Part shown: positions 1 through 59,009 of the stretch, piece after piece | How the letters are laid out: each line of letters opens with the position of its first letter | Position numbering within the stretch: the first letter of the stretch is position 1 | Virus record (IMG/VR): IMGVR_UViG_3300035565_000042 | Span: 1 to 64,000 of that record | Length of the DNA stretch: 64,000 nucleotides | Direction: 5' to 3' (one strand) | Source of the DNA: a virus | The notes under the pieces: generated by a model | Seen by the model: only the letters and a program-made list of their open reading frames with translations | Database searches by the model: none | What the model was told of the DNA's origin: nothing | Translations under genes and position numbers: made by a program

Positions 1-2127
1 GGTGCTGCCGAACTGGCTGTAGAGGGAGTCAAAGCATTACTTAATCATGGCGCAAATAAAAGAGCCCGTGCTGAAGCTGTAGGTAAATGGATGAACACAT
101 GGAATTCAACTGATGAGTCTGCAGTTGAATATTCTGGTTACAAGAGAGGTGGATTCCACACGAAGAAAGGAAGGAACGCTGCAGCAAAACATGACAAACA
201 TAAGATCAAGCCGGTTATTCCTCCGACTGTCAATAATGAAACTGCACAACCTGCCGATGGTAATATTCCGACACAAGGAATGCCGATGCCAGGACAACAG
301 GTTCCACAGATACCCGGTGCAGGTATGAAATCAGGTGGCCCAACAGTTGCAAAAGCAAAAATGATGTTAAGAGATAATTCTGCACAGGGACATCCATTAA
401 CTACTAAACAAAAGAAATTCTTTGGCCTTATTGCAGGTGGAGGGAAACCAACCAAACATGCTACTGGCGGTATTGTAGGTAATCCATTATTTCTTCAACT
501 TCAAAAGACTCCGCAAGGATTCGACAAGGGTGGATTCTCAATATCATTTAAGGATGGTGGTATTCATATAAAGCCAGAGAACAAAGGAAAGTTTACTGCC
601 TATAAAAAAAGGACAGGAAAGACAACCACAGAAGCTTTGCATTCAAGCGATCCTCATGTAAGACAGATGGCAAACTTTGCCAGGAATGCTAAGAAGTTTC
701 ATCATGCTGAAGGCGGTCCAATTATTGATACTACATCAAAAAAGACTACAACAGTAGTTCATAGTATTGAGCCACGCAGTATGCTTCCCGCCGAGATTGC
801 ACCTCAGGCCGTAAAAGATGGTATCTTTAAAGGATCAGTAGAGGATCTCTTGAAACTTCCAGTTGAGGAACAGGCAAAGATTCTGCATAATCCCGATAAA
901 GGATATAATGTTACAAGTAAAGCACCAGGGCAATATGAATTCTGGCGTAATGATACGATCAATGCTCAAAAACCAACAAAAGCAATGGATTTTGCAAGAA
1001 AAAGATTTGCTGAAGCTCAGAAGACTAACATTCTAAAAACCAATATTAAACCAGATCTTGTTGCTGAAAGAGCAAAAGGAGGCAAGATAGAAGGTCCTGG
1101 CGGCCCTAAAGAAGATAAGATCGAGATGAGTGCTAAGGATGGATCATTCATCGTTCCTGCAGAGAATTCTGGTGTTGCTATTGGACTTGGTAAGGAATTC
1201 CTTGGATGGAAAGGCGATGAGAGAGCCAAACGTAAGTATTCATCCGGAGGAATCAAAGTAAGTGATGGGGAAGTATTATTCACACCTCAGGAAGTAAATA
1301 TCCTTAAGTATCATGGTGTTGATCTCAATAAACTTGCTCCCAATGCTGATCCTGGCAATAAACTTGCCAAGGGTGGTTATACATGGAATGAAGATAAAGG
1401 TAACTGGGCATGGGACGAGAATGCTGAAGGTGATGATCCGGAATATGCAGATTATCTCAAGAATCAGAAAGCTTCAGCAAGTAATCCAGCAAAAGATCAG
1501 GCTGGTACAACTGAAGATAAGAAAAAACCAGAAAAGACAGCTTTTGAGAAGATCATGGATATCACCCCGGAAATCGGTGGTGCATTACAAGGAGCTGCAG
1601 CAATATCAGGAATCATTAAGACAGGTCATATTCCTGATGTCAATGTAAGCAATACGCTGAAAACTCTTACCAATAACTTGCGTAAGGAATCACAATATGG
1701 ACTTGCTCCCGGGACTCTTGATGCAATGGATATACAGACCGAAAAATCAAGGAGAGATGCTACCAATGCAATTGTTGCTCGCGGAGGGTCCTCATCAGAA
1801 GTACAGTCAGGTATTCTTGGAACTCTTAGTACTACATTAAGCGAAAAGTACAAGACTCAACTTATGGATCAGCAAGAGAAGACCAGCAAAACAAGTTTAT
1901 ATGCCAATGCTGCCATGGGTGAATCCGGACAGGAAATGGATGCTAAGAAGATTGCTCTTGATGCCTGGCTTCGTAGTCAACAGACAAATGCCGGACTTCT
2001 TAATTCTGCAATAGCAAATATCATAGGAGCCCGGAAATATAAAGAAACACAGGAATTCCTTGACAAGACAGGTACAAGTGCTCCATACATAACGATTGGT
2101 GGCAAAACTATTAAATTAGGCAATTAA
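1..2127 (+). CDS. Virion-associated protein, 5' partial
   Basis: The frame is open from base 1 through the ATG at 91 to a TAA at 2127, so the gene starts upstream of the window. The product is Gly/Lys/Pro-rich and low-complexity in its first half. It contains a 'GGPKEDKI...DGSFIVPAENS' stretch (about nt 1090-1170) and an echo, 'KVSDGEVLFTPQEV'. This G-G-P-x-x-D-x-I...G-x-F-V-P-A signature recurs in tape-measure and internal virion proteins of tailed phages. The C-terminal third is helical and Gln/Ala-rich. It lies 11 nt upstream of the next virion gene, in one + strand run with the giant protein. I infer an internal or tail-tube-associated structural protein; no enzymatic motif is visible. 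Confidence 0.8.
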   Translation, partial: GAAELAVEGVKALLNHGANKRARAEAVGKWMNTWNSTDESAVEYSGYKRGGFHTKKGRNAAAKHDKHKIKPVIPPTVNNETAQPADGNIPTQGMPMPGQQVPQIPGAGMKSGGPTVAKAKMMLRDNSAQGHPLTTKQKKFFGLIAGGGKPTKHATGGIVGNPLFLQLQKTPQGFDKGGFSISFKDGGIHIKPENKGKFTAYKKRTGKTTTEALHSSDPHVRQMANFARNAKKFHHAEGGPIIDTTSKKTTTVVHSIEPRSMLPAEIAPQAVKDGIFKGSVEDLLKLPVEEQAKILHNPDKGYNVTSKAPGQYEFWRNDTINAQKPTKAMDFARKRFAEAQKTNILKTNIKPDLVAERAKGGKIEGPGGPKEDKIEMSAKDGSFIVPAENSGVAIGLGKEFLGWKGDERAKRKYSSGGIKVSDGEVLFTPQEVNILKYHGVDLNKLAPNADPGNKLAKGGYTWNEDKGNWAWDENAEGDDPEYADYLKNQKASASNPAKDQAGTTEDKKKPEKTAFEKIMDITPEIGGALQGAAAISGIIKTGHIPDVNVSNTLKTLTNNLRKESQYGLAPGTLDAMDIQTEKSRRDATNAIVARGGSSSEVQSGILGTLSTTLSEKYKTQLMDQQEKTSKTSLYANAAMGESGQEMDAKKIALDAWLRSQQTNAGLLNSAIANIIGARKYKETQEFLDKTGTSAPYITIGGKTIKLGN

Positions 2128-2138
2128 ATACTATTCAC

Positions 2139-3848
2139 ATGGACGGACAAAATTTAGGAATAAAAGAGGGTATGTCCTTTGTGGAAAACTGGGATAATGA
2201 TATAAATCAGTTATACCAGCGCGAAGAATATAAAGCTCGTATCAATAACGAGCAGGAGAAGAAAGCAGAGTATTATGCAAATCTTCTCAAGCAAGGTCAT
2301 GTAAGTAGTCCTTATGCCGAGTCACGGTTACAAGAGTTCTATAAAGGTCTTAATGGTAAGGTTGCCGACTTTGCTATTAACAATCCTAACTTTACCAATG
2401 ATGTTACTGGTATGCAGAAGTTCAATGAACTTACTGATCAGTTCCTAAATAATCCTATCATACTTGAAGATCAGCAGGTAAAACATGAATTCCAGAAATT
2501 TCAGGATGCAGTTGTTGCTGGAAATATAAGTCCTGATACGTACCATGAAAACATGGAACGGTATAATAATTATATCAATGCAAAACCCGGAGACAATGTA
2601 AGCCCTTATGTATTTCAGAACTTCAAACAACAGGATTTCGATAAGATGACTTCAGAGATTGCCGGAACAATAAAGACAGATCAGTTCGAAAATGTCAAAC
2701 AGGTAGGATATGATTATTACAAGACTACCGATGTGGATAAGCTTTATCCAGTATTACTATCAAGATCGATGGCAGCCGTTCAGGATCCAGAGAAAGCAAT
2801 AGCAATAAACAATCGTTATCAGGCAGCAATAAGTTCCAATCCTGATCTGAAGAACTTGAAGGGATTTGAAAATTCAGTTACCTGGTATGCAAATTATCTT
2901 CAGTCAGCTCTTCCAATAAAAAACATGGAACATGCATGGTCTATGTCAGAATGGATGTCAGGGCAGGGAGAAGGCGCAAATGTAGATTGGTTTGGAGTAA
3001 GTAAACTTCCAAGGATACTTTCATTGTACAATGCTATTGGGCAAAAGAAAAATGCGGATGGTTCTGTAGCACTTGATTCAAATCAGAGACCAATTGTTGG
3101 ATATACAGATCAGGAGATAAGTGCAGATCCTGAAGATATAGCTTTGACTGATTTCGATAAAGATAAAAGGATGTCTATAAATGGTGCAGCTGGTGTTCTT
3201 GTTAAGAATACAAAAACAGGGCAACTTGAACCATTCTCTTTTGCAGGTACTTCAGTAATCGCAGGATGTAATTCTATTGATAAGATTGTTTCCATAAGTG
3301 GAATTCCTTATGCTAAGGTAAATGTATCTTACGGTTCCCCAATAGGAACTGAAGGGATCAATAAAGACAAACCCTTCTATCCAGCCAAAGATGAATGGGG
3401 ATTTCAGACGATGAAAACCCAGATACCTGCCGGCTCGATGTCAGCACTTAACATGACAGGATCAATGTCTGTAGGAACCGGTCAGCAGTATAGTGGTGAC
3501 GTCTATGTCCGGTTAAAAGTAAATCAGAACACAGCCCAGAACTGGAATAAACTTCACAATGGTGAGTCTTATGCAAATAAGGTTTCAACAAGGACCGTTG
3601 AGGATCTTCAGGAAATGGCTAAGGCTAATCCAGCTTCAAGTTATGCTATAAATAAAATTGCTTCCGGAGATATCCCAAACATATCTGGAGTCATGCCGGC
3701 CATAACTGGAAACAATATTGCTAAACGGAATAAATATCTTATTGCCGAACAAACTGATCCAACATCCGGCAAGAAGATAGATATACTTATTGATGCAGAA
3801 ACTGGAATAGTGTGGAAAGATCCTGCAACAGTTAACAAATACAGATAG
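2139..3848 (+). CDS. Structural protein preceding the giant virion protein
   Basis: A 569-residue protein starting at ATG 2139, rich in Asn, Gln, Tyr and Lys, with a helical N-terminal half ('QLYQREEYKARINNEQEKKAEYYANLL') and a more beta-rich C-terminal half. I recognise no catalytic motif. It sits between two virion-type genes, so an internal-core or tail role is inferred from context only. It ends at a lone TAG (3846-3848). The following giant gene is in the same frame, only AAA ATA further on, so readthrough would fuse the two proteins. Confidence 0.8.
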   Translation: MDGQNLGIKEGMSFVENWDNDINQLYQREEYKARINNEQEKKAEYYANLLKQGHVSSPYAESRLQEFYKGLNGKVADFAINNPNFTNDVTGMQKFNELTDQFLNNPIILEDQQVKHEFQKFQDAVVAGNISPDTYHENMERYNNYINAKPGDNVSPYVFQNFKQQDFDKMTSEIAGTIKTDQFENVKQVGYDYYKTTDVDKLYPVLLSRSMAAVQDPEKAIAINNRYQAAISSNPDLKNLKGFENSVTWYANYLQSALPIKNMEHAWSMSEWMSGQGEGANVDWFGVSKLPRILSLYNAIGQKKNADGSVALDSNQRPIVGYTDQEISADPEDIALTDFDKDKRMSINGAAGVLVKNTKTGQLEPFSFAGTSVIAGCNSIDKIVSISGIPYAKVNVSYGSPIGTEGINKDKPFYPAKDEWGFQTMKTQIPAGSMSALNMTGSMSVGTGQQYSGDVYVRLKVNQNTAQNWNKLHNGESYANKVSTRTVEDLQEMAKANPASSYAINKIASGDIPNISGVMPAITGNNIAKRNKYLIAEQTDPTSGKKIDILIDAETGIVWKDPATVNKYR

Positions 3849-3854
3849 AAAATA

Positions 3855-6800
3855 ATGCTTTCAATTGAAGATAAGGGCCCCGATCCAAGCAAAGGTGTCT
3901 CCATAGATTCCTTTAGTTATGGAAATGATATAACAAAGAATGCTCCGGTTGTCTTGAAAAATCAACAGCAACCAGAAACAGACAAGGGCCCTGATCCATC
4001 AAAAGGCGTTCCACTCGATGCACTTCGTCCTGAAAATCCGGAACAATTCCAGTTACCTGATACTGAGGCAAAGACTTCCGTTACTCCTCTTGATCCGAAT
4101 AAAGGATTAAAGGAACGTCAGGATGAACTTGACAAGCAGATTGCAAAACTGAATAATTACAAGGCAGAAATCACAAAGAAACCATTCCTGTCAACAATCA
4201 ATGATGCGTTGTTTGATCATACATTTTCTCTTGGGAATGAAGATGAAAAGAAAAAGAAGATCCAAGATGTAGACGAGACTCTTACAAAACTCACTGCAGA
4301 ACGCCAGACAATAGCAAATAAGATAGCACCTATTACTCCTGAAGTAATGAAGGATATCAATGACAAGACATCCTTTTCCGTCGACAAGAATAATATCTTT
4401 ACTACCAAGTTTTCTGATGCCATTGAGAAATATGGGTTGCCACAGATAAACCGTGCTTATACTGAATACTGGAACCAACAGTTTGAGAAGGATGCCAAGG
4501 ATGATGTGAAGCATTATGAACAGATGGGTGACACCAAACAGATGTTCACTTATAATGCAGTCAAGTATGGAGAAATGCCAACTCTTAATCCTGAAGAGAC
4601 TACAGAAATAAGAACACTTTGGGATAAGATTCGCAACAGTCCGGAATTCAATGGTAAATATTCTACATCTCCGATAACATACGATAACCAGGTTAATGTG
4701 GCAAACCAGATGGTTAAAGAGTTTGTCGATAGTAAACATCTTAATGATGAAAATGTAGATACCAAGCAGAAATCTGATGACTGGATAAAATATTCAAAGG
4801 TCATCAGTTCCATGATGCAATATAATCCTGATAATGGCGCTGTGACAGTTCAGGGACTACAAGCATTTGCCAGGGCCAATACCGGACAGATCAATGACAG
4901 AATATCACAACTTCAGAGCATAGCAAACAATCTCAACACTATTGAGGATAAGTATAACAAGAATCCAGAAAGTAAACCTCCATGGTTTGTAGAGAATGGA
5001 ACACCGGAACAAGCTCAGAAGTCATTCAATAATTACCAGGCTTATAAACAGTATGTCAATACTGAACTTACAACACTACAGAAGACCCAAACACTCAATA
5101 ATGCTATCTATAATTTACCACTCAATAAGAATGCAAAAAAAGAGGTAGGTGCATTTGGGAAGAAGAATGATCCATCGAATATAGATATGCTTGACTTTAA
5201 GGCGGCCGGACTTGATGAATTATCACAAAGTCAGGATATCGTTGACCTTAACAAACGTGTTTATGCCGGAGAACACCTTTCCTGGGGCGAACAGAAGGCC
5301 GTTGAACTTGCGACGATACTCAACACTTCCCTACATGGGAAGACCTTAGAAACGCCTGATTTGACCTTAAAAGGGCCAAGTCTTGGTTTTAAGAATGTAA
5401 CTCCTGCATCACTTACCGGAGATTATCTTTCCGGTATTGATATTCCGCGAGCCAGGGACAATCATGAACTTAAACATCTTTGGCAACTTCCATTTGCAAC
5501 TGCCGGTGAATTAAGTCATGCATATGGATCTATTGCACATATGTTTGACTGGGTTCAAAACAAAATGGAGCAAGGGATAGCAAATATTGCATTCGGAGAT
5601 AAGACAGGAGATAAATGGTATGATCTGAAGAAAAGAGGATTAATACCAAACTATATCGGAATAGGTGGAAATGATGAGACTGGTATGCTCGTTGATATGT
5701 TTAATGAGTTTTCAGAAAAGATGCCAGGACTACCTGTTACATCCGGTTCTCCATTTGCTAATGCCATGTGGTCAGGATATAAATCAACCGTAGATATTAT
5801 TCCTGATATTGGTATGACATTGTTTATGCCTGAAGCTGGAGTACCTAAGATACTTGCTGAACTTGGAGTCAAGTCTTTCGGTAAATGGGCAATGTATCTT
5901 GGTGCTAAAGGGATGATTGAGAAAGCTGAAGAGTCTGAAGAAGGAACTATAAAACAGAAATTAACTGCACCACTCATTGGAGGCCTTGAAGGTGCGGCAC
6001 AAGGATTCATGTACGATGCTCTTGGTATTATGGCATCAAAAGCTGGTTCCTTACTTGCTCGTAAGACCATGCCAAAATTAATGTTTGCTGATGGTTTTGA
6101 AAAGATAGATCCTACCTCAAGAGTATCTGATCTGAAAGGGGAAAACGTACCTATCTTCAAATCTACTGATGAGGCATTGAACTATCAATTAGGTTCCCTT
6201 GGATATTCTACTCTTGTCAATATGGTTTCCTTTGCCGGAATGAATATCATTGATGAATATGCCAGAACAGGAAAGATATCTGCTGAGTCAGGAGTATCAG
6301 GAGCCATGACAGGATTTATGCTTATAGCAAAAGATGCTGGACAGTTACTTACTGCAAAGGCAATGAATATGCTTGTTGTCGCTCCGGATGAGTTTGTATA
6401 CAGACTTTATACAAGCAAGGTTACTTCTGAGCAGATGGCAAAGAAAGCTCAGGATCTTATTCAGGGAGTACACGAAAAAAGGTCAAAGAATGTTAAACAA
6501 GATCTATACCTGGCAAGAGTATGTCAGAACATGGCTGAATTGAAGGGATTACTGGAAGAACATAAGAATGATCCTAAAGCTATCGAATCGATTATACTTC
6601 AGTCTAAACTTGAGAAAGGAACGAAGAAATATATCATCCAGAAGTTAAAAATTGCATCAAAGGAAAAAGCGCAAGAAGGAGCACCATTATTCCCAAAAAA
6701 ACCAAAGATAACTGAAGCTGATGCTGAGTCCATACAGAAACATAATGAAGAGATAAAAGGTAAGTATCCGGACTTATATTCAAATGGATTACTCGAAGTC

Positions 6801-9800
6801 GACAAACAATCCGGAGCTTTTATAGAGCCGGATGCAGCAACACTCTTTGCTATTCATGATCAATTATCAGAGGATATCGACAAGTTAAGCAAACGGAATG
6901 CTCATGATGACTATATCAATCCTGATAAGGATGCCATTGCAAAGATTAATGAACAGTTAAAATCACTTCCAGATACTCCTGAGAACACAAATTCAAGAAA
7001 TGCATTACTCGCGCAGATTGAGACTATCAGGAAGATGCCATCTCCAGAGTTGACAAAGTTATTGAATCAAAGAGTTGCAGTTGAGAACCATCTTAATGAA
7101 ATAGCATCAAATGTAAAACTTCCATTCAACTACAAACTTCCATCTGAGAAACATCAGGAACTTCTCAATCGTGTTGCTACCGGAGAACCGGTTACTGGAA
7201 CCGTAAGTATTCCAGGTCAGGCAATACATAGGATGCTAATTACAATGCCTAATGGAGATCAGGTTAATGCATATCGTGGAACGGCACCCGGCATTGAAGA
7301 AACAAAAGAAGAATTCGAAGAGCGCAATAAACTTGCTCTTGGCGCAGCTCGTTCAAAGACTCCAGTTACTCTAAAGTATATCCCAAAAGCTGAATGGAAC
7401 CCAGATGACAAAGCATTCGAATCATTCGTCAATCCATTTACCGGAGAAGTAGAACACGTACCATACGGAGACAAACTTGATGTCATGGTTGGTGACAAAT
7501 CTATTGGTTCAGTTCAGGTTCATGACTATAGTGAACAACAATTGATGCGATCAAAATTCAACAAGGCAATAGAACTGGCCCAGGCATCAGAGAATGAAAT
7601 AGTGCATAACCTTTCCTTTGATGCAGACGGTAAACCGGAAATGGGAAAGAAGAAAGAGAAGAAGATGCAGAAACTTGTTTCCGACATGGTATCCGGATTA
7701 AGTAATGCATTATCTACAGTCAAGACTGAAGATGTGATACCGTGGCTGAAAGGACAGATCGACAACAATAATAAACTCAAACAACCAGAGAAAGACTTCA
7801 TAAAGAATTTCATTGACAAGAACAAACAGACCATATCAGAAAATGTGATGACAAGAAGGCTCATGGATGCCGGTTTTAAGACTCAGGTTAAAGGTTTTGA
7901 TCCTTCGTCAATGATCCTACCAGAAAATGAGAATCCTGCCTTAAATCAATCCCAGAAGATAGCTGAGAGCCTAAAGACATTCACACCTATATGGAATGAT
8001 ATGTCGAATCGGTATAACCAAAGTCAGGGCCGGCTACAGATGGAGTTTAACCGGATGGCACTTAATGGTGATATCAGTGAGATAACCAACCAGGATACAT
8101 GGAAAGCATGGTTATTAAAACATAGGACTGCTGACGATGTGAATAATGCTATTGTCGATTATCTTATGGATATGCACTTCCCTGTTGCTGTTTCAATGCT
8201 TGACTTTTATCATAGTGTCCGGCCGGTAAGAAAGATTGGTGTATATGTTGAGAAAGGAGTTATCTATACAAAGGATCTTAATCCATCCGAGTCGTATGAA
8301 GATTTCGTAAACAGGTTTGGAAGTACATTGAAAGCAACCGGTATTGATAAGATCAAGGAACTTATTCTTAACCGTAGGAGAGAACAAGAAGAAGCATTCA
8401 AATATGAAAACGCATTAAGTGCTGATGAACTCTACAAAATAAAGACAGAACAATTCGAGAAAGATCTTGACTTACTCTTCAATGTTACTGGAGTTTCAAA
8501 AGATGTGTGGAAACAATATTTCCAGCAGAGAACAAATGAAACAAAGGCTTATGCCAAAGAAGGGGATAAACGTAAAACCGACTATAAGACCTTCGATAAT
8601 CTTATGCGGAACAAAGTATATCGCAGAGGTAAGAAAGGTGATTATCTATGGCGCCAGGGAGACATAATTTTTAATCTTCTCAAAGGTAATGCATCTCCGG
8701 CCGGCAAAGATCCGGAACAGGCAAGTGCTGACATCATAAAGTATTTTACTGAAGGTCGTGATGCAGACGAGGATCATAATGTAGTATTCTCAAATCTTTA
8801 TAAGCTTTCTACAGCTCTTGGCAATCGTGAAGACATAGGAATAGATGGCCGCGATATCAAAGGCGATCATATGACTTCCTTTGAACAGAACAGTAACATA
8901 TTTACCCAGGCAGACAATATACTTGAATCGGCTATAGACAATCCAATAACCAGACTTCACAAAGAGAATGGAGTGCCAATGCAGATCATCATAGTTAATG
9001 GACTGCATAATCTTGATATTAACAAATACAAGAAAGGAACTCCGGCTGAAGATATGAGCATGGAAGATATCTGGGCCACTCAGGTTAGTATGTTTGCAAA
9101 CGGACTTGATACATACCAGCATAGTATCGGTCAGTTTGCTGATAAACCATCTATCTATGTCATAGAGGCACCAAAGGTTACAAATCCTACAGAAGAGCAA
9201 TTCCAGGCATTATATAAGGATCTTCCAAAGAAAGACTTTGATGATGCTGTAGAGTATCTCACCAAAAAATATGCATACTGGCAGGATGATCTATATTCAA
9301 AACTTGCAAAGAATTATGAAGGGGATCATTTTCAGAAGTTGCATAATATGATGAAAGCATTCGTGTACAACTATGCTATGAACACGAAAGCTTCTAATGA
9401 GATATTCTTCGGCGATCTGCATTCATATTCTAATGTTCTAAACCTTGTCAAAAGAGCTGGAAGTTCTAACAGTCCCGGGTGGAATATGAATGAGAATGTA
9501 GAAGGAGGTATTGGTTCTCATGTCAGGGTAATAGTCGTTAATGACAAAGGAATATTCGACGACAAAGGAAATCTTATTACAGACAAGGGAGCTGATGGTG
9601 CAATCTTCATGTCCGGAGCATGGGCAAAGCGGGCCCAGGTATCTCAGGGATCAGTTTACAACAAAGAAGCAGTCTATCCTCAGTTATTATCAATGAAAGC
9701 TGTTGCTTCATGGCTTAGTGATGCAACAAACAAAAGAGGACTTTACAAGGGTAATTTCATTAATGTAGATGCTATATCAGAAGGAACCGGATCTCAAGCA

Positions 9801-12800
9801 TATAAAGAGATTGCTGACTTCATGAAGAAAAATGGTATTGATGTTCTTATACCAAAATCTTCAGCCAAGGTTGTAACAGATAGTGAAGTTGCAAATATCT
9901 ATGATGAGAAAGGTAATTTCAATCCAGACTTTGAAGTTGGAGAACAACACATAAACAATCTCAAGACATCACATATATTCGTTCAGCAGGATCTTCGTCA
10001 TCCAGATGTTCCCAGAACAGCCAAGCAACCGGCCCAGTTCCTTCCAAACATATTGATTCTTCCGGAAGGTGGTCAGATAGCCGGGAATATTTCTGAGATG
10101 CAGAGATTATCAATTGAACAGTTCAAAGATGAATTAAATCAGAAATCATCTGATGAAGCAAAGATCGATTGGCTTAGAGAAAATGTAAATCAGTTCTCGC
10201 AACCAGATCTGTTCAGGCTTCTTGACATGGGACTTACGGTTGATGATCCTTCGTATCGTAAGATGATGCATACAATCCTCTCAGCTGCGATAAATAAAAA
10301 AGTCCTTGAGATACCAATAAACAGGATCGCCACTCAGGAGATACCTGATCTTGACGGATTATCCAGGCCATTACGAAAAACATCTGATGGTAAACACGTC
10401 ATGCTTCCGGATATTGCGACTTCGTATAGGAATGGAAGGGAAGAGGATGAAAGGTTTAAAGGAAAAGTTCAGGACGCAATTGACCACATAAATACTCATG
10501 CAGAAGAATACCGCGATCTCTTTGATGACAATGGTAAACTAATGAAGTGGGAGATTGAAGAGAGAGATGGTATAATACCAGGAGAAGTTATAATATCAAC
10601 AAGAGTTCCGGCTCATGGTCTTCCTTCACATACAGTAGCAAGATTAAGAAAGAATCTTCCCGGGAACTTCACAATGATTGACAGGAAAGGTCAAACAAAC
10701 AGTGGTTCAGACTTTGATGGAGACCAGAGATATAACCAGGTATTTTATAAGCGCAAAGGAAATTCTTTCTTTGATGATACAAAGGAAGGTATAGCAAACC
10801 ATAATATGATGCTAATGGTCTATGCTTATACTCATCCTGATAACTTTGATCTGATAAACCGGAAGATTGACGTAAATGCTTATGATGACATTCTTGAGAA
10901 GATAGGAAAACCATCGGTCAAACTATCCATTGATCCTATGGCTTATGAAGCTGCAAGGCTTAATAACATGGTTGGCGTTACGTCTAAAGGCATCATGACA
11001 GATATGATGACAGTATACAACCTGTTATCAAAACACAACATAAGACTTCGTAATCGCAAGTATATTCCAGTAGGATCAGGTATAGTTGAGGCAGAGAGAT
11101 TTGTTTCCGGAAATATAATGCTTGATCAGATCATCAAGGATCAGTATGGTGCAGTCAGGAATCATCTTGCGAACCTTGAGAATATGTCTTTCGACAATAC
11201 CAAGGATCCAAAGATCGAGGCCCTGGGATGTAATGAAATTACCTTTCCAATGGTTATTCTGTCAGTAATTGCTGATAGTCGTAACAGCAGTGAACATTTC
11301 AAGAGTTTCGAAGAACATTACCAGCATCTGCATGATGCTATAGGTAGGACAATGCAATATATGAATAGTCCTCTTGTAAGAGAGTTTGTATCTATAGCCA
11401 GGAGAAACAATGGTGGCATACGTAATGGAGATATGCAATCTATCTTTGAGAATCTTGAACATACTGCAGAAACTGAAAGCAATGAAAAGACTCCACGGTT
11501 TACAGTAAGAGATGTTAAGGATCTACGATCACTTCATTTCATGTCATCGGAACTTTCCGATATCAGGAATCTTTATCGTCTTACAGAATCAGCACCGACA
11601 ACCTATGTTGACTATATAATGGCACAGAGACTTGTTGATAAGTTTAAGGCAAACAACAGGGAAAACGGTCTTAAGATATTCGATACAAGTTCGTTTTTTA
11701 CAAGCCAGGGAGAGTTTCGCACAGAGTTCCGCGTTATTGACAGGGTGCTTGATATGTGTCGTGATTATGTCTTTGATGATATTCCTGAGACAAGTGAAGT
11801 TGGGAAGCAGATACAGGCATATGTTCTTCAGAAGATGATTGGTAATAATCCGAAGAAACTTCAGTTGACCAAAGATGAACTAAATGATGTATGCGCTTCA
11901 ATAAACAATGCTTTCAATATTCGCGCTATTGGATTGAAACAATCATTTGGCAAGACTTCAAACGAGTTGCTTGAACTACTTCCCAGACTCAAGGCAGAAA
12001 ATCCAGATAATGAGTTTCTGAAATATATCCGTGTAGTTAAAAAGAATGGTGTTGATACTGTAAGTATACTTCCGGAGTACACTCATGGAAAGATTTCAGA
12101 TTTCCAGATGAAAAAGATAGGAGAAGCCTTTGATAAACTTGAATCACATACCAAAGACTTATTTGCCTCCTACGCAATAGAAAAGTATGGTGCCAGCTCT
12201 TTAACTTCTAATGGTGGGTTCTATGCCCTCTTTGGTGACAACTATCGTGTAGAGCTCTCAGAACGCGCCAGAAACGAAATGAACGATTGGTACTTTGGTG
12301 ATGTATCTTCAGCTGACCGTCTTGCAATAGCTGATTGGGTTATCAGAGCAAATAGAAGCCAGGATATTCGTAAACTGAATGACGGGTATACTAATGATCG
12401 TCTTATGGATATGTTTACCGAACCATCCATTGATGTTCCTATTCGTCGGGATGCTCTTGAAGGAATAGGATCTATTGATGATATAACGCAATATCTTGAC
12501 CAGGCAAATCAGTATGAATTTAACAGAACTTTTTCAGACTGGTTAAGACGTGAACTTGGAATACCGGAAGGTACACGCAAAGTGACTCTGAAGGAAGCAA
12601 GAGAGTTTTCTACTCAATATGCAAAAGGACGCCAGGCAATAGCTGACAAGTTCTTTCCACAGACAAAAGAAATGGATGAAGAAGATGTTCGTCAACTTCA
12701 TGCCAATGATGCCGTAGGAACTGCCATGCTTACACATGATCCTGAACTGAATAAATTCATCTATGATCATCTTCAGAAAGTATTCCCAGACATAAAATTC

Positions 12801-15800
12801 TTCAGCAACCGTGATGAATTCTATGAGTTCTGCCGGAAGAACGGAGCTCGGATGATGGACGTTAACATGAATGCCGTTGGTCATGCATTCAAGAAAGCTG
12901 TATTCATTGATCCGAATTTTCCAGTACAAGAAGCATTATTCCATGAATACGGACATATCTATTGGGATGGATTGCCTGATGATGTAAGATCAAAACTTGA
13001 ACTCAGAAAGTTATACAAGGAGATATTCCCACATCTTGATGGTGAAGATCTTGATGAGAAGATTATCATTGATATTGGTCGTGCTGGCACCGATATGGCA
13101 AATACTTTTGCTTATTCTAAGTTTGGCAGATTTACAGAGACTCTTAAAGATTTCTGGAGATCAGTAAAACAGTTCTTTGGAAAATATAACAAAACAGACC
13201 TTGTCAATGATATGGCTTATGACATCTGGAGAAACAAGAATAAGTTTGGGACTCTCTCTTCAAATGTCATCAAGGAAATGCATAACCTGATCGAGTATGA
13301 CAGTTCAATAGAAGGATTTAACAGAGACAAGCCAAACCATACAGTAATTGTAGGTAATGTTCATCTGCCCGGGATTCATTCAGTAATCAACAGGGCCAAA
13401 CAGAATAAGTTTGATCCTGACGATACTATTCAGAAGAACCTTGACAAGTTCACTCAGTTCTACAAAGAAAATAATGCTGGCCGGGAACCAACGGATGATG
13501 AGACTGCATTGTTTATCCACAACACTATGAACCGCTGGAATGCACGTACCGAAGCTGGTAATGCTGCACATATGGTAGCACAGGAGATCTTTGGTGGTGT
13601 ACAGATGGATGAAGAAACAAGCAAACGTTTCGCACCGGGAGTACTTAATCAGATGCGTTCTTCTATGACTCAGATGCGTCAGGAACTTGAACATAAATAT
13701 CCGGAATGCAAGTTCTATACTGAACATGATCTGATATCAATGGATCATAACTATTTTGGTGTTGCAGACCTTATAATGGATATTGGCAATAATCATCTTC
13801 ATGTTTTCGATTTCAAGACTACGGAGAACGAATATAAAGATGCAGATGGTATTATAACTCCATGGTATAAAAAACCATTCGGCCTCATGCTTCCGCCAGT
13901 ATCGAATGTTCAGGAGTCAAGATATTCAGAACATAAGATGCAACTTGCACTTGAGGCTATTGCACTTGAGGAACAGGAAAATCCTGATCATCCCGGAGAG
14001 AAGAATGTCATTGATGGAATGTATATCGTTCCGGTTATCCAGACCATGGGAGATGATGGACTTGTGAAGAGATCATACATATCAAAGATTGTTGAGATTC
14101 CCGGGGAAGACAGATCAAGAGTAATGGATAATATCATTCCTGTAGAAGTCAATGGTAAAGACAGAGAATATGCACAACTGATCCTTAATTCATATAATGA
14201 AACAGTCAAGAACTTAAAAGAGATATATGCTGAGTTTGACAAGAAGTTACAGGATGAGAAAATGCCACAGCATCTTCGTGATATGTATATGGCAATGTAT
14301 TCCTATTTCAGTTCATCGTTTAACCACAAGATGGGAGAACTTGACCATAAGGATCTTGATGGTATAAGACTTGCTGCAGATAAGAATCTATACAATACCT
14401 TACTTGATCTTGGATATGAAGTAAAAGATATTAAGACAATGCCTACAGAAGTTCTTGTCAACGCAATGGCAAGAGGAATATCGAAAGCACAATATCTTGG
14501 TGGTGGCGGTGGCGGAACATTCTATCATCAGGTACCAGTAGACCCAGAGACTGTAGGGTTATATGGATCGACAGAGAAAGTTCCTAATCCAGCATACAAA
14601 CCATTTGATGGATATTATCACAAAGAAATCGGTGGTATTGATGTTTATTTCCATGAAGCCGGCACGCAGACATTAAAGCTAGGAGATCCTGTTCTTCGTC
14701 TTTGGGAGACAACTTATCAGAGTCAGAAATATTCTTCTCATGATTTCAAGACTGTAGTATCAGTAGATGCAAATAAGAAAACTGTTACACTGAAAGATAA
14801 TGATACCGGAGCTACAACAACTGAACCTAATGTTGAAGGCAATAGTGGTATTCTAAAGATTCATGAAGGAGAGATCGATAAACCTATTACTGATAACTAC
14901 GTTCCAAGTACATTGACTCAACAGCGTGATCTTACTCAGACGCATTGGGATTATGGTCAGGAACCATTTCCAGGAGAGAAGAGTCCGAAAGCCATGGAAG
15001 AACAACAGAAATTCTACATGATCCGTAAGCGACTATGGTCATTCTATAATCGGTATGATACCCGTGAGAAACTTCTCGAGCTTCTGGATAATTATCAGCA
15101 AGTAGTTGAGGAATTCAATAAGCTTAATGAACTCAAGAGTGAGGATCCTAATTGGATAGCAAAAGGACTTCACACTTTACTTGGTGAGACATTGATGAAC
15201 CATGATATGGCCCGGCAGTTGAATGATGAAGTTGACAAGGATGGAAAGCCTACTACATTTATGCCATTAGCAATGAATATCTATCATATGCTTACCGGTG
15301 ATAACGCTGCTATAACAATGAGATTTGGAGGATTCCATCGGTTTGCCGAGTACTTTGAACCGGAAAGGATGATCCCAGGGCAGTATATCGGATTCAGTTA
15401 TGCCATGTCAATGAAGAACCAGGCTCTCTTCAAAGTACATGAAGATCAATATGACATGCTTAAGAAACTTGATCCTATTATTGGTAATCTCAACAGAGAT
15501 AATATTACGATCAAGATGGGTAATAAACTCTTCTGGGCAAGTCCTGACCGGAATGGATTAAGTGAAGACGAGAGAAAATTCTTAAGAGAAGTATACAAAA
15601 ACTATTATACCTACACAGAGAAGTTTTTCAGTATTGCTCAACGATATGACAAGATGGGCAAACCGGTTGGTATTAATGAAGAGAATGGAATGTCAATGTA
15701 TCCTCAGCTTATTCCTGTAAACAGGGTAAGTGCAACAACCGGTGAGTTTGAAGATCTGTTAGGAGATGGAAAGAAAGGAAGAAAGTGGGGTTCTGCTATT

Positions 15801-18317
15801 CATGATGTGATGACTGACCCTAAGTTTGATAATGTATCTATAGTTGTCGATCCAAAGAATCCTGGCAAGACTGTTAAATTCGGGGATTTCAAAGATCAGT
15901 TCATGATCGAGAACGCTACAGATGCAGAGATTGAACAATGGATGGGCAAGAAATATCGGTACTGGCTGAAGTCTCATAAGATATTCCCAGATATGTCTAC
16001 AGGAAAACTGTATGATGCTTACATGCAGGCCCAGAAGAAGTACTACGAATCAGATAGGAGTAATACCGGAAGACGTATAACATCAATGGCTGATCAGAAA
16101 TCGAAGTATGCAACAAAACATTTTGTTGAGTCTGAGATTGAGGTCATGAAGTCGAATATCTGGGCTTTTCACATGAAACACGTTCTTGCTTCTACTGACT
16201 ATGTTTTATCGCATTACGCAGGCGTTAAGAATGTCCATGACTATCTTCAACAGTATATGGACTTGATGTTGTTCAAGAAAAGTCCAAGAGAGAATAAGGC
16301 ACTTACCGGATTTGTAAATACCATTATGCAATGGAAGTCATTCTCTACAATGGTATATTCACTCAAGACACAACAGTATAACTTTGCCGTTGGCCAGGCA
16401 ATGGATATCACTCGTGAGCCAGCTGCCTATGCAACTGGGATGAAACGTATGGGCCTCAATCCTGAGAACTTTACAAAGGCATTCAATATTCTTCGCAGGG
16501 AAGGCCTTGGCAATATCGTAGACGAGTCAAGATTCAATGAGATATCCAAGCAACACGGACTTGCTCTTGAATGGTCACAGGGCAAGAAATTCGCTCCCTG
16601 GACACTGGATAAGTTCCTTAACAAAGGATATCTTCCTATGGAATGGGTAGAAAGGATGAACCAGTTCCCGATCTTTACCGGACTCATGACTGATGCAGAA
16701 TGGAATGCTTATGACAAGAATGGTGAGATTGTACCCGGTCATGAACAAGATGCATTATCATTTTCTCGCAAGTATATTCTTTCATCAAGAGTCAAGGATA
16801 TACATGGTGACTATACTCCGGAGAATGCAGCTCCATTCTGGAATACTAATGCCGGGGCATTGTTCATGCAGTTCATCAAGTGGGTACCAGCAAAATTATA
16901 TTCTCAGTTTGTACCTTATCATTTCGATAGGAATTACATGATACGTTCCGGGATATTTCCTACCATAAAGACTTATCTGAATATTGTAAGGTTTAATAAT
17001 ATTGGCGAAGAAAGCAGAAGACTTGAATACAAACAAGCTCTTGAAAGATGGCCAGATGCAGACAAGGCAGAAGAACATAACAAGTGGGTTGCAGAGAAAT
17101 ATGCTGGTAATCCGGATATGATTGCCAAGATGTCCATTGATACTAAGAACCTGAAGAAAAGCACATTCAATCTGCAACAGCAATTTCTGCAAGGAACCAG
17201 GGATTATATGCAGATGCTTGAAGCCGGACGTAATGGAGGGCGGATCAAATATGCAGATCTGGCAGAACAAGATCATCGCAATCTCATGTCAGGAATAATA
17301 GGCCTTGCAATGTTTGGTGGTTTCGCTGCCGGCATAGGTGCATTGATGGAATCAAAGAAAAAACTGAAGGGTTTCTGGCCGACACAGAAAGAATGGTTAC
17401 TTCGCTTCTTCACTCGTTATTCCGGAGATATGTATCTTGCATCGAATATGGGACCAACACTTAACCAGGCATCGTCAGGCAACTTCTTTGAATCAAAGGC
17501 AAAGAATCTTATTCCAGCACTCTCTCTTGGTACTAACCTCATGAAAGGCGTAAGAGACTTTACTGAGTATATACATGGACTTGCCTTGAAAGCTTTCGAT
17601 CCGGACAGTTATAGTGAGAATTTGCTTGATACAGACTTCGGCAGGTATACCAAGATGACGGATTACAATGATGTTGGGGATGCCAAGTGGATCTATGATC
17701 TATTCAATGTACTTCCCGGAGGTGCTGCAATAAAAGCTCTTGAACAACGTCGTATGCAGGTTATTTATGCAAAACCATATAAGGAATATCTTGAGAAGAA
17801 TGAGCATATGAGCCCGGAATTCATTGAGGCTATCAGTAATGTTGTTGATGTAACGAAGTCCACAAAACAGATCATGGATGATGCTAAGCGTGGAGAGACA
17901 TTAAAGAAAGCGCTTCCTATGTCTTTACTATGGGATGCCATGACAAAAGATCAACTCTTCTCGTATCGTGATGCATTACAAGGCAAGGCAGTATTCAATA
18001 AAACAAAATCTCTTTCCCAGGATGCTGCATATCTGTATCAGTGGTTACAGCAGTATCCTTTATCGCAAGAAGATCTTGATTCTATACTTGAGAAGGCTGG
18101 AAAGATGGAAGAATTCCTGAAGAAAGGGGAAGGCCGTTCTGACAAAGAGAAGATGGATAAACTCTACAAAGCAATAGATTTCTACAAAGATGGAAATCCA
18201 GATAGTCTATTCAATGTTGACGATATACTTTCGAAATATAAAAATACTCCTATGAATAAGCGTATTGATTTAACTCGCCCAAAAACTGTTATTGAAAAAT
18301 TAAGAACGGGAAAGTAA
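3855..18317 (+). CDS. Giant virion polyprotein: RNA polymerase core, metallopeptidase, PD-(D/E)XK nuclease
   Basis: A 4,820-residue, uninterrupted protein (over 500 kDa). The N-terminus repeats DKGPDPSKGV (residues about 7-16 and 42-51). Residues 2250-2254 read RVPAH and residues 2283-2291 read SGSDFDGDQ, 36 residues after R2250. This matches the RxP...H plus (N/S)xxDFDGD active-site layout of the beta'-type double-psi barrel in multisubunit, RDR-type and crAss-like RNA polymerases. Lysines K1948 and K1965, downstream of a D-G motif at 1914-1915, are candidates for the partner barrel. HEYGH at 3030-3034 is a zinc-metallopeptidase motif. H3239...E3244, D3305 and D3319-x-K3321 form a RecB/Cas4-like PD-(D/E)XK site. 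A poly-Gly linker lies near 3550 and a hydrophobic segment near 4480-4500. I infer that it is packaged and ejected with the DNA, acts as an early-transcribing polymerase and may be self-processed. Confidence 0.9.
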   Translation: MLSIEDKGPDPSKGVSIDSFSYGNDITKNAPVVLKNQQQPETDKGPDPSKGVPLDALRPENPEQFQLPDTEAKTSVTPLDPNKGLKERQDELDKQIAKLNNYKAEITKKPFLSTINDALFDHTFSLGNEDEKKKKIQDVDETLTKLTAERQTIANKIAPITPEVMKDINDKTSFSVDKNNIFTTKFSDAIEKYGLPQINRAYTEYWNQQFEKDAKDDVKHYEQMGDTKQMFTYNAVKYGEMPTLNPEETTEIRTLWDKIRNSPEFNGKYSTSPITYDNQVNVANQMVKEFVDSKHLNDENVDTKQKSDDWIKYSKVISSMMQYNPDNGAVTVQGLQAFARANTGQINDRISQLQSIANNLNTIEDKYNKNPESKPPWFVENGTPEQAQKSFNNYQAYKQYVNTELTTLQKTQTLNNAIYNLPLNKNAKKEVGAFGKKNDPSNIDMLDFKAAGLDELSQSQDIVDLNKRVYAGEHLSWGEQKAVELATILNTSLHGKTLETPDLTLKGPSLGFKNVTPASLTGDYLSGIDIPRARDNHELKHLWQLPFATAGELSHAYGSIAHMFDWVQNKMEQGIANIAFGDKTGDKWYDLKKRGLIPNYIGIGGNDETGMLVDMFNEFSEKMPGLPVTSGSPFANAMWSGYKSTVDIIPDIGMTLFMPEAGVPKILAELGVKSFGKWAMYLGAKGMIEKAEESEEGTIKQKLTAPLIGGLEGAAQGFMYDALGIMASKAGSLLARKTMPKLMFADGFEKIDPTSRVSDLKGENVPIFKSTDEALNYQLGSLGYSTLVNMVSFAGMNIIDEYARTGKISAESGVSGAMTGFMLIAKDAGQLLTAKAMNMLVVAPDEFVYRLYTSKVTSEQMAKKAQDLIQGVHEKRSKNVKQDLYLARVCQNMAELKGLLEEHKNDPKAIESIILQSKLEKGTKKYIIQKLKIASKEKAQEGAPLFPKKPKITEADAESIQKHNEEIKGKYPDLYSNGLLEVDKQSGAFIEPDAATLFAIHDQLSEDIDKLSKRNAHDDYINPDKDAIAKINEQLKSLPDTPENTNSRNALLAQIETIRKMPSPELTKLLNQRVAVENHLNEIASNVKLPFNYKLPSEKHQELLNRVATGEPVTGTVSIPGQAIHRMLITMPNGDQVNAYRGTAPGIEETKEEFEERNKLALGAARSKTPVTLKYIPKAEWNPDDKAFESFVNPFTGEVEHVPYGDKLDVMVGDKSIGSVQVHDYSEQQLMRSKFNKAIELAQASENEIVHNLSFDADGKPEMGKKKEKKMQKLVSDMVSGLSNALSTVKTEDVIPWLKGQIDNNNKLKQPEKDFIKNFIDKNKQTISENVMTRRLMDAGFKTQVKGFDPSSMILPENENPALNQSQKIAESLKTFTPIWNDMSNRYNQSQGRLQMEFNRMALNGDISEITNQDTWKAWLLKHRTADDVNNAIVDYLMDMHFPVAVSMLDFYHSVRPVRKIGVYVEKGVIYTKDLNPSESYEDFVNRFGSTLKATGIDKIKELILNRRREQEEAFKYENALSADELYKIKTEQFEKDLDLLFNVTGVSKDVWKQYFQQRTNETKAYAKEGDKRKTDYKTFDNLMRNKVYRRGKKGDYLWRQGDIIFNLLKGNASPAGKDPEQASADIIKYFTEGRDADEDHNVVFSNLYKLSTALGNREDIGIDGRDIKGDHMTSFEQNSNIFTQADNILESAIDNPITRLHKENGVPMQIIIVNGLHNLDINKYKKGTPAEDMSMEDIWATQVSMFANGLDTYQHSIGQFADKPSIYVIEAPKVTNPTEEQFQALYKDLPKKDFDDAVEYLTKKYAYWQDDLYSKLAKNYEGDHFQKLHNMMKAFVYNYAMNTKASNEIFFGDLHSYSNVLNLVKRAGSSNSPGWNMNENVEGGIGSHVRVIVVNDKGIFDDKGNLITDKGADGAIFMSGAWAKRAQVSQGSVYNKEAVYPQLLSMKAVASWLSDATNKRGLYKGNFINVDAISEGTGSQAYKEIADFMKKNGIDVLIPKSSAKVVTDSEVANIYDEKGNFNPDFEVGEQHINNLKTSHIFVQQDLRHPDVPRTAKQPAQFLPNILILPEGGQIAGNISEMQRLSIEQFKDELNQKSSDEAKIDWLRENVNQFSQPDLFRLLDMGLTVDDPSYRKMMHTILSAAINKKVLEIPINRIATQEIPDLDGLSRPLRKTSDGKHVMLPDIATSYRNGREEDERFKGKVQDAIDHINTHAEEYRDLFDDNGKLMKWEIEERDGIIPGEVIISTRVPAHGLPSHTVARLRKNLPGNFTMIDRKGQTNSGSDFDGDQRYNQVFYKRKGNSFFDDTKEGIANHNMMLMVYAYTHPDNFDLINRKIDVNAYDDILEKIGKPSVKLSIDPMAYEAARLNNMVGVTSKGIMTDMMTVYNLLSKHNIRLRNRKYIPVGSGIVEAERFVSGNIMLDQIIKDQYGAVRNHLANLENMSFDNTKDPKIEALGCNEITFPMVILSVIADSRNSSEHFKSFEEHYQHLHDAIGRTMQYMNSPLVREFVSIARRNNGGIRNGDMQSIFENLEHTAETESNEKTPRFTVRDVKDLRSLHFMSSELSDIRNLYRLTESAPTTYVDYIMAQRLVDKFKANNRENGLKIFDTSSFFTSQGEFRTEFRVIDRVLDMCRDYVFDDIPETSEVGKQIQAYVLQKMIGNNPKKLQLTKDELNDVCASINNAFNIRAIGLKQSFGKTSNELLELLPRLKAENPDNEFLKYIRVVKKNGVDTVSILPEYTHGKISDFQMKKIGEAFDKLESHTKDLFASYAIEKYGASSLTSNGGFYALFGDNYRVELSERARNEMNDWYFGDVSSADRLAIADWVIRANRSQDIRKLNDGYTNDRLMDMFTEPSIDVPIRRDALEGIGSIDDITQYLDQANQYEFNRTFSDWLRRELGIPEGTRKVTLKEAREFSTQYAKGRQAIADKFFPQTKEMDEEDVRQLHANDAVGTAMLTHDPELNKFIYDHLQKVFPDIKFFSNRDEFYEFCRKNGARMMDVNMNAVGHAFKKAVFIDPNFPVQEALFHEYGHIYWDGLPDDVRSKLELRKLYKEIFPHLDGEDLDEKIIIDIGRAGTDMANTFAYSKFGRFTETLKDFWRSVKQFFGKYNKTDLVNDMAYDIWRNKNKFGTLSSNVIKEMHNLIEYDSSIEGFNRDKPNHTVIVGNVHLPGIHSVINRAKQNKFDPDDTIQKNLDKFTQFYKENNAGREPTDDETALFIHNTMNRWNARTEAGNAAHMVAQEIFGGVQMDEETSKRFAPGVLNQMRSSMTQMRQELEHKYPECKFYTEHDLISMDHNYFGVADLIMDIGNNHLHVFDFKTTENEYKDADGIITPWYKKPFGLMLPPVSNVQESRYSEHKMQLALEAIALEEQENPDHPGEKNVIDGMYIVPVIQTMGDDGLVKRSYISKIVEIPGEDRSRVMDNIIPVEVNGKDREYAQLILNSYNETVKNLKEIYAEFDKKLQDEKMPQHLRDMYMAMYSYFSSSFNHKMGELDHKDLDGIRLAADKNLYNTLLDLGYEVKDIKTMPTEVLVNAMARGISKAQYLGGGGGGTFYHQVPVDPETVGLYGSTEKVPNPAYKPFDGYYHKEIGGIDVYFHEAGTQTLKLGDPVLRLWETTYQSQKYSSHDFKTVVSVDANKKTVTLKDNDTGATTTEPNVEGNSGILKIHEGEIDKPITDNYVPSTLTQQRDLTQTHWDYGQEPFPGEKSPKAMEEQQKFYMIRKRLWSFYNRYDTREKLLELLDNYQQVVEEFNKLNELKSEDPNWIAKGLHTLLGETLMNHDMARQLNDEVDKDGKPTTFMPLAMNIYHMLTGDNAAITMRFGGFHRFAEYFEPERMIPGQYIGFSYAMSMKNQALFKVHEDQYDMLKKLDPIIGNLNRDNITIKMGNKLFWASPDRNGLSEDERKFLREVYKNYYTYTEKFFSIAQRYDKMGKPVGINEENGMSMYPQLIPVNRVSATTGEFEDLLGDGKKGRKWGSAIHDVMTDPKFDNVSIVVDPKNPGKTVKFGDFKDQFMIENATDAEIEQWMGKKYRYWLKSHKIFPDMSTGKLYDAYMQAQKKYYESDRSNTGRRITSMADQKSKYATKHFVESEIEVMKSNIWAFHMKHVLASTDYVLSHYAGVKNVHDYLQQYMDLMLFKKSPRENKALTGFVNTIMQWKSFSTMVYSLKTQQYNFAVGQAMDITREPAAYATGMKRMGLNPENFTKAFNILRREGLGNIVDESRFNEISKQHGLALEWSQGKKFAPWTLDKFLNKGYLPMEWVERMNQFPIFTGLMTDAEWNAYDKNGEIVPGHEQDALSFSRKYILSSRVKDIHGDYTPENAAPFWNTNAGALFMQFIKWVPAKLYSQFVPYHFDRNYMIRSGIFPTIKTYLNIVRFNNIGEESRRLEYKQALERWPDADKAEEHNKWVAEKYAGNPDMIAKMSIDTKNLKKSTFNLQQQFLQGTRDYMQMLEAGRNGGRIKYADLAEQDHRNLMSGIIGLAMFGGFAAGIGALMESKKKLKGFWPTQKEWLLRFFTRYSGDMYLASNMGPTLNQASSGNFFESKAKNLIPALSLGTNLMKGVRDFTEYIHGLALKAFDPDSYSENLLDTDFGRYTKMTDYNDVGDAKWIYDLFNVLPGGAAIKALEQRRMQVIYAKPYKEYLEKNEHMSPEFIEAISNVVDVTKSTKQIMDDAKRGETLKKALPMSLLWDAMTKDQLFSYRDALQGKAVFNKTKSLSQDAAYLYQWLQQYPLSQEDLDSILEKAGKMEEFLKKGEGRSDKEKMDKLYKAIDFYKDGNPDSLFNVDDILSKYKNTPMNKRIDLTRPKTVIEKLRTGK

Positions 18318-26318: not shown

Positions 26319-26813
26319 TCAAAGTTTGCGTCCTATTATTTTCATCCATTGTTCATAACTCCAAACTTCCAATCCTTTGCTCTTTCGATACTCCATGAGT
26401 TCCCGCCATCTTATTTTGAATCGTTCCCGATGCCATAGTTTTTTCAGATATGCACGTTTCTTATTGCATCGTCTTATATGTGCGGCCAGTTCTGCATCCC
26501 AGCGTCTTTGTCGTTCCTGCATGGTCATTCCAAGGAACCCGAGTTCGTCTATCTTGACATAAACACCAAGTCGCATCCGGTTTACTATTCTTGTGAAAAA
26601 AAGTCTTATAACCCGTTCTACCAAGTTATAAGACAAATCCATTCCCTGTTCTTTGCCATCTTCAACGATTTGTCTGATGATCAGGTTCCATCCATGGGGG
26701 CCATCAAAAGGAACTTTACCTGACGACGTACTGGTCGTCGATATAGAATTTAATGCCCGGTAAGGTCTCTCGTCCTGAATGCAAATCCTCTTTGATTTTC
26801 TCTCTGTTTTCAT
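26319..26813 (-). CDS. HU-like small DNA-binding protein (tentative)
   Basis: 164 residues. 'WNLIIRQIVEDGKEQGMDLSYNLVERVIRLFFTRIVNRMRLGVYVKIDELGFLGM' resembles the two helices and beta turn of HU/IHF proteins, followed by a strongly basic, Arg/Trp-rich tail. The ATG at 26813 lies 98 nt inside the upstream gene; the next in-frame ATG (26642) would delete part of the HU-like helix, so the long overlap may be real. A ~100-nt gap follows before the next gene. The nucleoid-like role is inference. Confidence 0.65.
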   Translation of the reverse strand: MKTERKSKRICIQDERPYRALNSISTTSTSSGKVPFDGPHGWNLIIRQIVEDGKEQGMDLSYNLVERVIRLFFTRIVNRMRLGVYVKIDELGFLGMTMQERQRRWDAELAAHIRRCNKKRAYLKKLWHRERFKIRWRELMEYRKSKGLEVWSYEQWMKIIGRKL

Positions 26814-58479: not shown

Positions 58480-59009
58480 TGAGTGTATTTAAAATAAATA
58501 AGGAATATACGGCAGTCCTCAACCCAGAGGCTGCCAAACTTGTTCCTGAGCTATCAGGACTCAGTCCGGATGAACTTCTGTATGTCATCCTTGTTGCAGA
58601 CTATGCTGATGGTCCATACCGTAAGAGACCACCAGAGGAAAGACGTACACTTGCCCTAAAGCATGTTTTTGGAGCCAAGCAAGTCAATCTGGATAATCAA
58701 AGGATCTATGATGCTCTTGATGCTTACAAGAGTCTTGTATTTGATATCCGGAGAGAAACACTTGATATTCTCAAACAAAAAGCACAACTATATCATAAGG
58801 AACTTCTGAATCCAAATATTGAATTCAAAAGGATGAAGGAACTTGACCAGGCAATTCAGTACATTGAGGATCGCATTGAGAAGATTGAGACAAGTCTTTC
58901 AACTGATGATATCACTGAGATGGAACTCAAAGGGCAAAAGAAACTTTCATTCCTTGAAATCTGGCAGAGAAGACAGAAAGAGTATAAGAAATTCAAAGAG
59001 ACAACATGA
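58479..59009 (+). CDS. Candidate small terminase subunit
   Basis: 176 residues from ATG 58479 (TAATG coupling). Mainly helical ('ALDAYKSLVFDIRRETLDILKQKAQLYHKELLNP') with an R-R-K tail. It is directly upstream of and overlaps (ATGA) the large terminase gene, the normal place of the small subunit. Motif evidence is weak, so position carries the call. Confidence 0.6.
   Translation: MSVFKINKEYTAVLNPEAAKLVPELSGLSPDELLYVILVADYADGPYRKRPPEERRTLALKHVFGAKQVNLDNQRIYDALDAYKSLVFDIRRETLDILKQKAQLYHKELLNPNIEFKRMKELDQAIQYIEDRIEKIETSLSTDDITEMELKGQKKLSFLEIWQRRQKEYKKFKETT

Follow-up and report, generated by a model that had tools for sequence, protein, structure and literature searches.

The virion-associated RNA polymerases (vRNAPs) of crAss-like phages transcribe the early genes (PMC10136315). 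For instance, the polymerase of phi14:2 carries out early-gene transcription that is resistant to rifampicin (PMC10136315). The virion of crAss001 contains the RNAP-associated proteins gp47, gp49 and gp50, probably located in a zone of the capsid near the portal, and this cargo is thought to exit ahead of the genome while partly unfolded (PMC10172136). Giant RNAPs of up to ~6,000 aa have been described in a review as a hallmark of the group (PMC10136315), and PD-(D/E)XK nucleases have been noted inside the large transcription proteins (PMC10136315; PMC7886860). For the peptidases of polyvalent proteins, three possible times of processing have been proposed: ahead of packaging, inside the head, and following injection (PMC5512222).

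The gene under study is a single open frame of 4,820 codons at 3855..18317 (+), running from ATG to stop with zero internal stops. It lies in the window, by which we mean the whole stretch of DNA analysed (64,000 nt); the virus contig from which the window is taken, starting at its first base, measures 83,393 bp. Judged from the sequence and from homologous giant frames in other contigs, the gene very probably encodes a fusion of virion RNAP and RNAP-associated cargo protein, in a crAss-like phage that branches deeply. The phage is assigned to the order Crassvirales through its predicted terminase large subunit (TerL), portal, MCP and tail proteins. A crass-type TerL is encoded at 59006..61153 (+) (phrog_6681), PHROG matches identify MCP, portal and tail proteins, and the tail ring protein CrAss_Ring_2 is recognised by Pfam at 1.3e-10. 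Among the matches listed, TerL hit crass-like or unclassified faecal phage records in tblastn with ~24% identity, and a tblastn search with MCP gave no match in INPHARED. These two results, together with a long stem of the RNAP in the window clade (2.9 changes per column), point to a deep lineage. The RNAP tree is firm on the monophyly of the clade; its placement of the clade is unreliable, as long branches meet there.

The gene order tail stabilisation, 678 aa, 569 aa and giant mirrors that of cr10_1, where gp35-gp34-gp33-gp32 measure 1,338, 699, 594 and 4,460 aa, and that of Flavobacterium phage Fpv3. The 678-aa ORF (91..2127, +) takes the position of the crass ejection/cargo protein C1 in the cr10_1 order and has a weak match to a tape-measure PHROG, while the 569-aa ORF (2139..3848, +) is assigned by gene order to the position of cargo protein C2. 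An almost complete genome in circular permutation is suggested by the two ends of the contig: the gene for tail stabilisation stops close to one (G000:C1 82925-83393) and the cargo genes begin at the other (window 1-91). In the first 20 kb of the window, sites resembling promoters or terminators were no more frequent than in shuffled sequence. Three further ORFs were noted in passing. Just past the window end, a 303-aa ORF (L002:9625-10536, +) resembles by eye a tyrosine recombinase/integrase, which is unexpected for a presumed lytic crass-like phage, and a 148-aa ORF (L002:11044-11490, +) resembles, also by eye, an endolysin of peptidase M15 type. The protein encoded at window 46355-47326 (-) combines DUF7666 with four stretches of pentapeptide repeats.

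Relatives were located by a capsid-protein search (capsid identity 73-85%), and three such contigs carry homologous giant frames, of 4,720 aa (G001), 4,533 aa (G008) and at least 4,611 aa (G007). A profile scan added a fifth clade member, L039, whose frame ends at the contig end. Over the RNAP region, the four homologues are roughly 33-47% identical to the window protein. Homologues of the individual domains are separate proteins in other crassviruses, and it could therefore be asked whether an error of assembly or reading frame has joined separate genes in the window. This explanation is refuted in practice and deserves next to no credence, because the relatives carry uninterrupted frames of 4,533-4,720 aa in independent contigs from other metagenomes.

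The homologues also single out the residues that matter. All five giants, the window protein included, have R-x-P, SD-x-DGD and HExxHIYWD-x-LP without variation, and all four that reach the nuclease likewise have H3239, E3290, D3305, D3319, K3321 and Q3363. By chance, a shuffled window protein holds D-x-D-G-D 0.13 times, HExxH 0.13 times and R-x-P..D-x-D-x-D 0.05 times. The original prediction had read the motifs from the letters of the window, and its positions for R2250-V-P2252, S2283-GSDFDGDQ-2291 (D2286, D2288, D2290), HEYGH 3030-3034, H3239, D3305 and D3319-x-K3321 are correct. It had also counted H2254 in the motif, a residue that the other homologues do not conserve. A second HExxH at residue 537 was rejected as chance because it is absent from the homologues. 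Direct searches were of little help: Pfam and PHROGs over the whole 4,820-aa chain and phmmer of the protein against solved structures returned nothing useful, blastn and tblastn found no match among INPHARED phages, and none of the bacterial genomes scanned held a relative. The proposed union of polymerase, peptidase and nuclease in one chain stands, and profile matches now specify its parts as a crAss-like RNAP core, a zincin and a RecB/Cas4-type nuclease. The original prediction further proposed that the chain is packaged and processes itself, and that its nuclease acts on DNA ends. The great length is not a novelty, since crass RNAPs of 4,070-4,551 aa are already in public records and the review speaks of up to ~6,000 aa (PMC10136315).

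The RNAP core is predicted at residues ~1830-2540 (9342..11474, +). A query profile of residues 1540-2560 from the five homologues was aligned by hhalign with a target of ten crass-type RNAP cores, giving a probability of 99.6 and an E of 1.6e-23 over 647 columns. The alignment pairs the window DFDGD with DFDID and RVP with RIP. Removal of the 120 columns around DFDxD still left an E of 1.8e-21, and reversed and column-shuffled targets, used as controls, gave E >= 0.25. The homologue that the first reading had expected from profile searches is thus found among the crass RNAPs. Group by group, Steigviridae matched best (the phi14:2 gp66 group, 1.5e-10), followed by ProJPt-Bp1, Intestiviridae and Suoliviridae; the Fpv3 core alone had no detectable similarity to the window core in hhalign. 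Searches with single sequences of the polymerase region gave no match, and neither Pfam nor PHROGs reported a T7-type single-subunit polymerase domain. Homology in the catalytic loop and beyond the motif places the predicted core among the single-chain virion RNAPs of Crassvirales.

AlphaFold2 on residues 1540-2560 yielded an unusable model with a mean pLDDT of 48.7, and the Foldseek list drawn from it (norovirus P domains, adenovirus knobs) was discarded as noise. For this reason, it is from sequence-profile homology that we infer two double-psi barrels in the region. The invariant lysines K1948 and K1965 (9696..9749, +), shared by the five homologues, lie in a stretch aligning with the first barrel (DPBB-B) in a provisional register. 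The R2250-x-P2252 ... SGSDFDGD catalytic loop (10602..10724, +), assigned to the second barrel (DPBB-A), is in register with the RxP...GSDFDxD of crass RNAPs. The spacing from R to D is 36 in the window and 37 in G001, G007 and G008; all six of the other crass-type RNAPs that were measured have 39. In G008 (the L028 homologue), SGSDADGD replaces SGSDFDGD at residue 2136, so that the phenylalanine of the loop is lost and the aspartates are kept. This replacement would suit a protein that is mainly a polyvalent effector or a tape-measure-like ejection protein with an inactive polymerase-like region, as would the ART-PolyVal domain (5.9e-10) of cr55_1 gp71, which is related to the second half of the giant. 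Nevertheless, none of the five homologues departs from R-x-P or from the three catalytic aspartates, and no second RNAP was recognised in a non-exhaustive examination of the genes of this genome. We regard an inactive polymerase as very unlikely and take the core to be probably active.

Downstream of the core, residues ~3013-3127 (12891..13235, +) are predicted to form a zincin-type metallopeptidase with HEYGH at 3030-3034, D3038 and the candidate third ligand E3068, all invariant in the five homologues. HExxH and E3068 both fall inside predicted helices, the helix of E3068 following that of HExxH, as is expected for a third ligand. Pfam and PHROGs gave no match for the region. Comparison by hhalign with ten zincin segments from crass phages gave an E of 2.9e-7 (controls >= 0.037), a test that favours a match because the targets were cut around HExxH. 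Against whole cargo proteins, the match was weak until the crass zincin segments were aligned together.

The next domain, residues ~3232-3402 (13548..14066, +), is a predicted RecB/Cas4-like PD-(D/E)XK nuclease, the core of which carries H3239, E3290, D3305, D3319-x-K3321 and Q3363. Evidence comes from Pfam, PHROGs, fold and profile. PDDEXK_1 was found by Pfam in the G008 homologue at 5.2e-5, above its cut-off; the PHROG exonuclease phrog_298 matched four clade members with values up to 2.3e-16; and hhalign against crass nucleases gave 2.5e-10. The structural model has an alpha-beta3-alpha-beta fold with blocks of pLDDT 80-89. It bears out the nuclease of the original prediction by matching Cas4-like folds: Foldseek returned Cas4-like ACE1, MGME1, AdnA and EXO5, with probabilities of 0.96-1.00 for the first three and a best E of 3.3e-3.

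Crass phages are known to carry two or three PD-(D/E)XK genes. In the window, a stand-alone exonuclease at 57595-58479 (+) belongs to the same phrog_298 (2.8e-16) as the nuclease domain of the giant, and BLASTP between the two gave 1e-5; they are possibly paralogues. An additional exonuclease-like ORF lies in the replication block at 26716-27768 (-) (phrog_10477, 1.5e-6).

A last conserved region, residues ~4124-4371 (16224..16967, +), is a C-terminal domain common to the RNAP-associated cargo proteins of gp49/gp65 type. It matched the C-terminal part of these proteins in hhalign at E 3.5e-8 (controls >= 0.3). A profile built of cr4_1 gp27, cr108_1 gp52 and cr55_1 gp71 recognised the nuclease at E 1.8e-9, the C-domain at 1.2e-7 and the whole second half at 8.7e-8. 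Against a viral structure library, the peptidase-nuclease model ranked a cr4_1 exonuclease protein first, over about 500 columns, and a cr108_1 protein second, over about 550. By comparison, the N-terminal region (residues 1-1540; 3855..8474, +) is mostly poorly conserved, with 0-11 invariant residues per 60, and residues 1-1500, compared by hhalign with every crass protein tried, gave E >= 0.028 and no detectable relative outside the clade. The predicted domain order is N-terminal region, two-barrel-type RNAP core, zincin, RecB/Cas4-type PD-(D/E)XK nuclease and gp49/gp65-type C-domain.

The relatives of the second half are themselves linked to giant RNAPs. In cr4_1, gp27 begins one base after the RNAP giant gp26 and consists of HExxH (342) and PDDEXK (~530-690). 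Similarly, cr55_1 gp71 adjoins the 4,551-aa gp70 and runs ART-PolyVal (291-399), HExxH (517), PDDEXK (741-903) and C-domain (~1774). Each of them lies directly downstream of its giant RNAP gene. Since the order zincin, nuclease and C-domain is that of the separate gene in cr55_1, the giant is best read as a fusion of the RNAP with its associated cargo protein. Most simply, the RNAP and cargo genes which other sampled phages have kept apart were joined in the window lineage; an ancestral fusion may instead have been split in the other phages.

That cr4_1, cr55_1 and the Steigviridae encode these parts in genes of their own can also be turned towards a different function for the fusion. The chain could be a precursor. 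Cleavage by the zincin, or by some other protease of phage or host, would then yield, ahead of packaging or in the course of it, the RNAP and associated cargo proteins that other crassviruses make separately, and fusion would be only a means of expressing them. In phage P1, the metallopeptidase domain of DdrB is believed to cleave DdrB itself, yet the N4 virion RNAP also has a metallopeptidase and is packaged uncut (PMC5512222). We consider the precursor somewhat unlikely. Its counterpart, in which an uncut ~550-kDa chain carries polymerase, peptidase, nuclease and an ejection-type C-domain through the tail and the peptidase frees the enzymes only inside the host, appears improbable.

Because of its homology and gene order, the giant is expected to act like the crAss001 and phi14:2 proteins, in the form of one chain. 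By analogy with these relatives, it would be made late and packaged in the capsid beside the portal, ejected ahead of the DNA in a partly unfolded form, and refolded inside the cell, where it would transcribe the early genes without the host RNAP. More tentatively, the peptidase might cut its own chain or a host protein around the time of ejection, and the nuclease might trim phage DNA or attack the DNA of the host or of a competitor.

Giant crAss RNAPs, zincin fusions and PD-(D/E)XK domains in large transcription proteins are already published. A sample of about a dozen phages showed no other chain with all four modules in the order of the window. What is new is a deep lineage with predicted RNAP, zincin, nuclease and C-domain in one chain. 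The transcription cargo of crAss-like virions, two or three proteins in cultured members, would be one covalent unit in this lineage. This fixes which parts travel together there and gives the RNAP-associated proteins, which are poorly understood, a clear order of domains. It also puts the peptidase and nuclease of the cargo on the same chain as the polymerase; nothing known is overturned.

Among more distant systems, the N4 virion RNAP and the polyvalent proteins join a packaged polymerase to an HExxH peptidase in a multi-enzyme injected chain (PMC5512222), as is predicted for the window protein. The N4 polymerase is of T7 type, unlike the DxDxD type of the window. Thermus phage P23-45 gp96 (5,002 aa) is likewise a giant virion protein with a DFDGD polymerase and a metallopeptidase, likened here by its description (PMC10770324). 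However, it is fused to the tape measure of a long-tailed phage and has its RNAP near the N terminus (PMC10770324).

Closer comparisons are found within the crass phages. The vRNAPs phi14:2 gp66 and crAss001 gp50 have an RNAP core homologous over ~650 columns, the RxP...GSDFDxD loop, and genes beside the tail and cargo genes, as in the window. The window protein differs from them in its fusion to the associated protein, in a very divergent core, in a spacing from RxP to DxD of 36-37 in its clade versus 39, and in D-Q-R after the catalytic loop in place of D-K. Single chains of more than 4,000 aa are shared with the Suoliviridae and Intestiviridae giants (cr4_1 gp26; cr55_1 gp70, 4,551 aa; cr10_1 gp32, 4,460 aa) and with the 4,070-aa 'RNAP catalytic subunit/RNAP subunit fusion' of LMMB. 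HExxH is present in the RNAP chains of cr55_1 and cr10_1 before the core, whereas the zincin of the window follows it, and the PD-(D/E)XK nuclease resides in the next protein in cr55_1 and cr4_1 but on the same chain, after the RNAP, in the window. Residues 2930-3480 repeat the HExxH-PDDEXK order of cr4_1 gp27 (annotated as an exonuclease) and cr55_1 gp71, and residues 4124-4371 correspond to the C-domain of the latter. Both are separate genes, unlike the window region, and gp71 has an ART-PolyVal domain, none being seen in the window protein. In Flavobacterium phage Fpv3, gp33, with a weak match to the C-domain, is also a separate gene, while gp32 (4,287 aa, 'virion structural protein') resembles the window protein in its crass-type RNAP core, an HExxH downstream of the core and the same gene neighbourhood.
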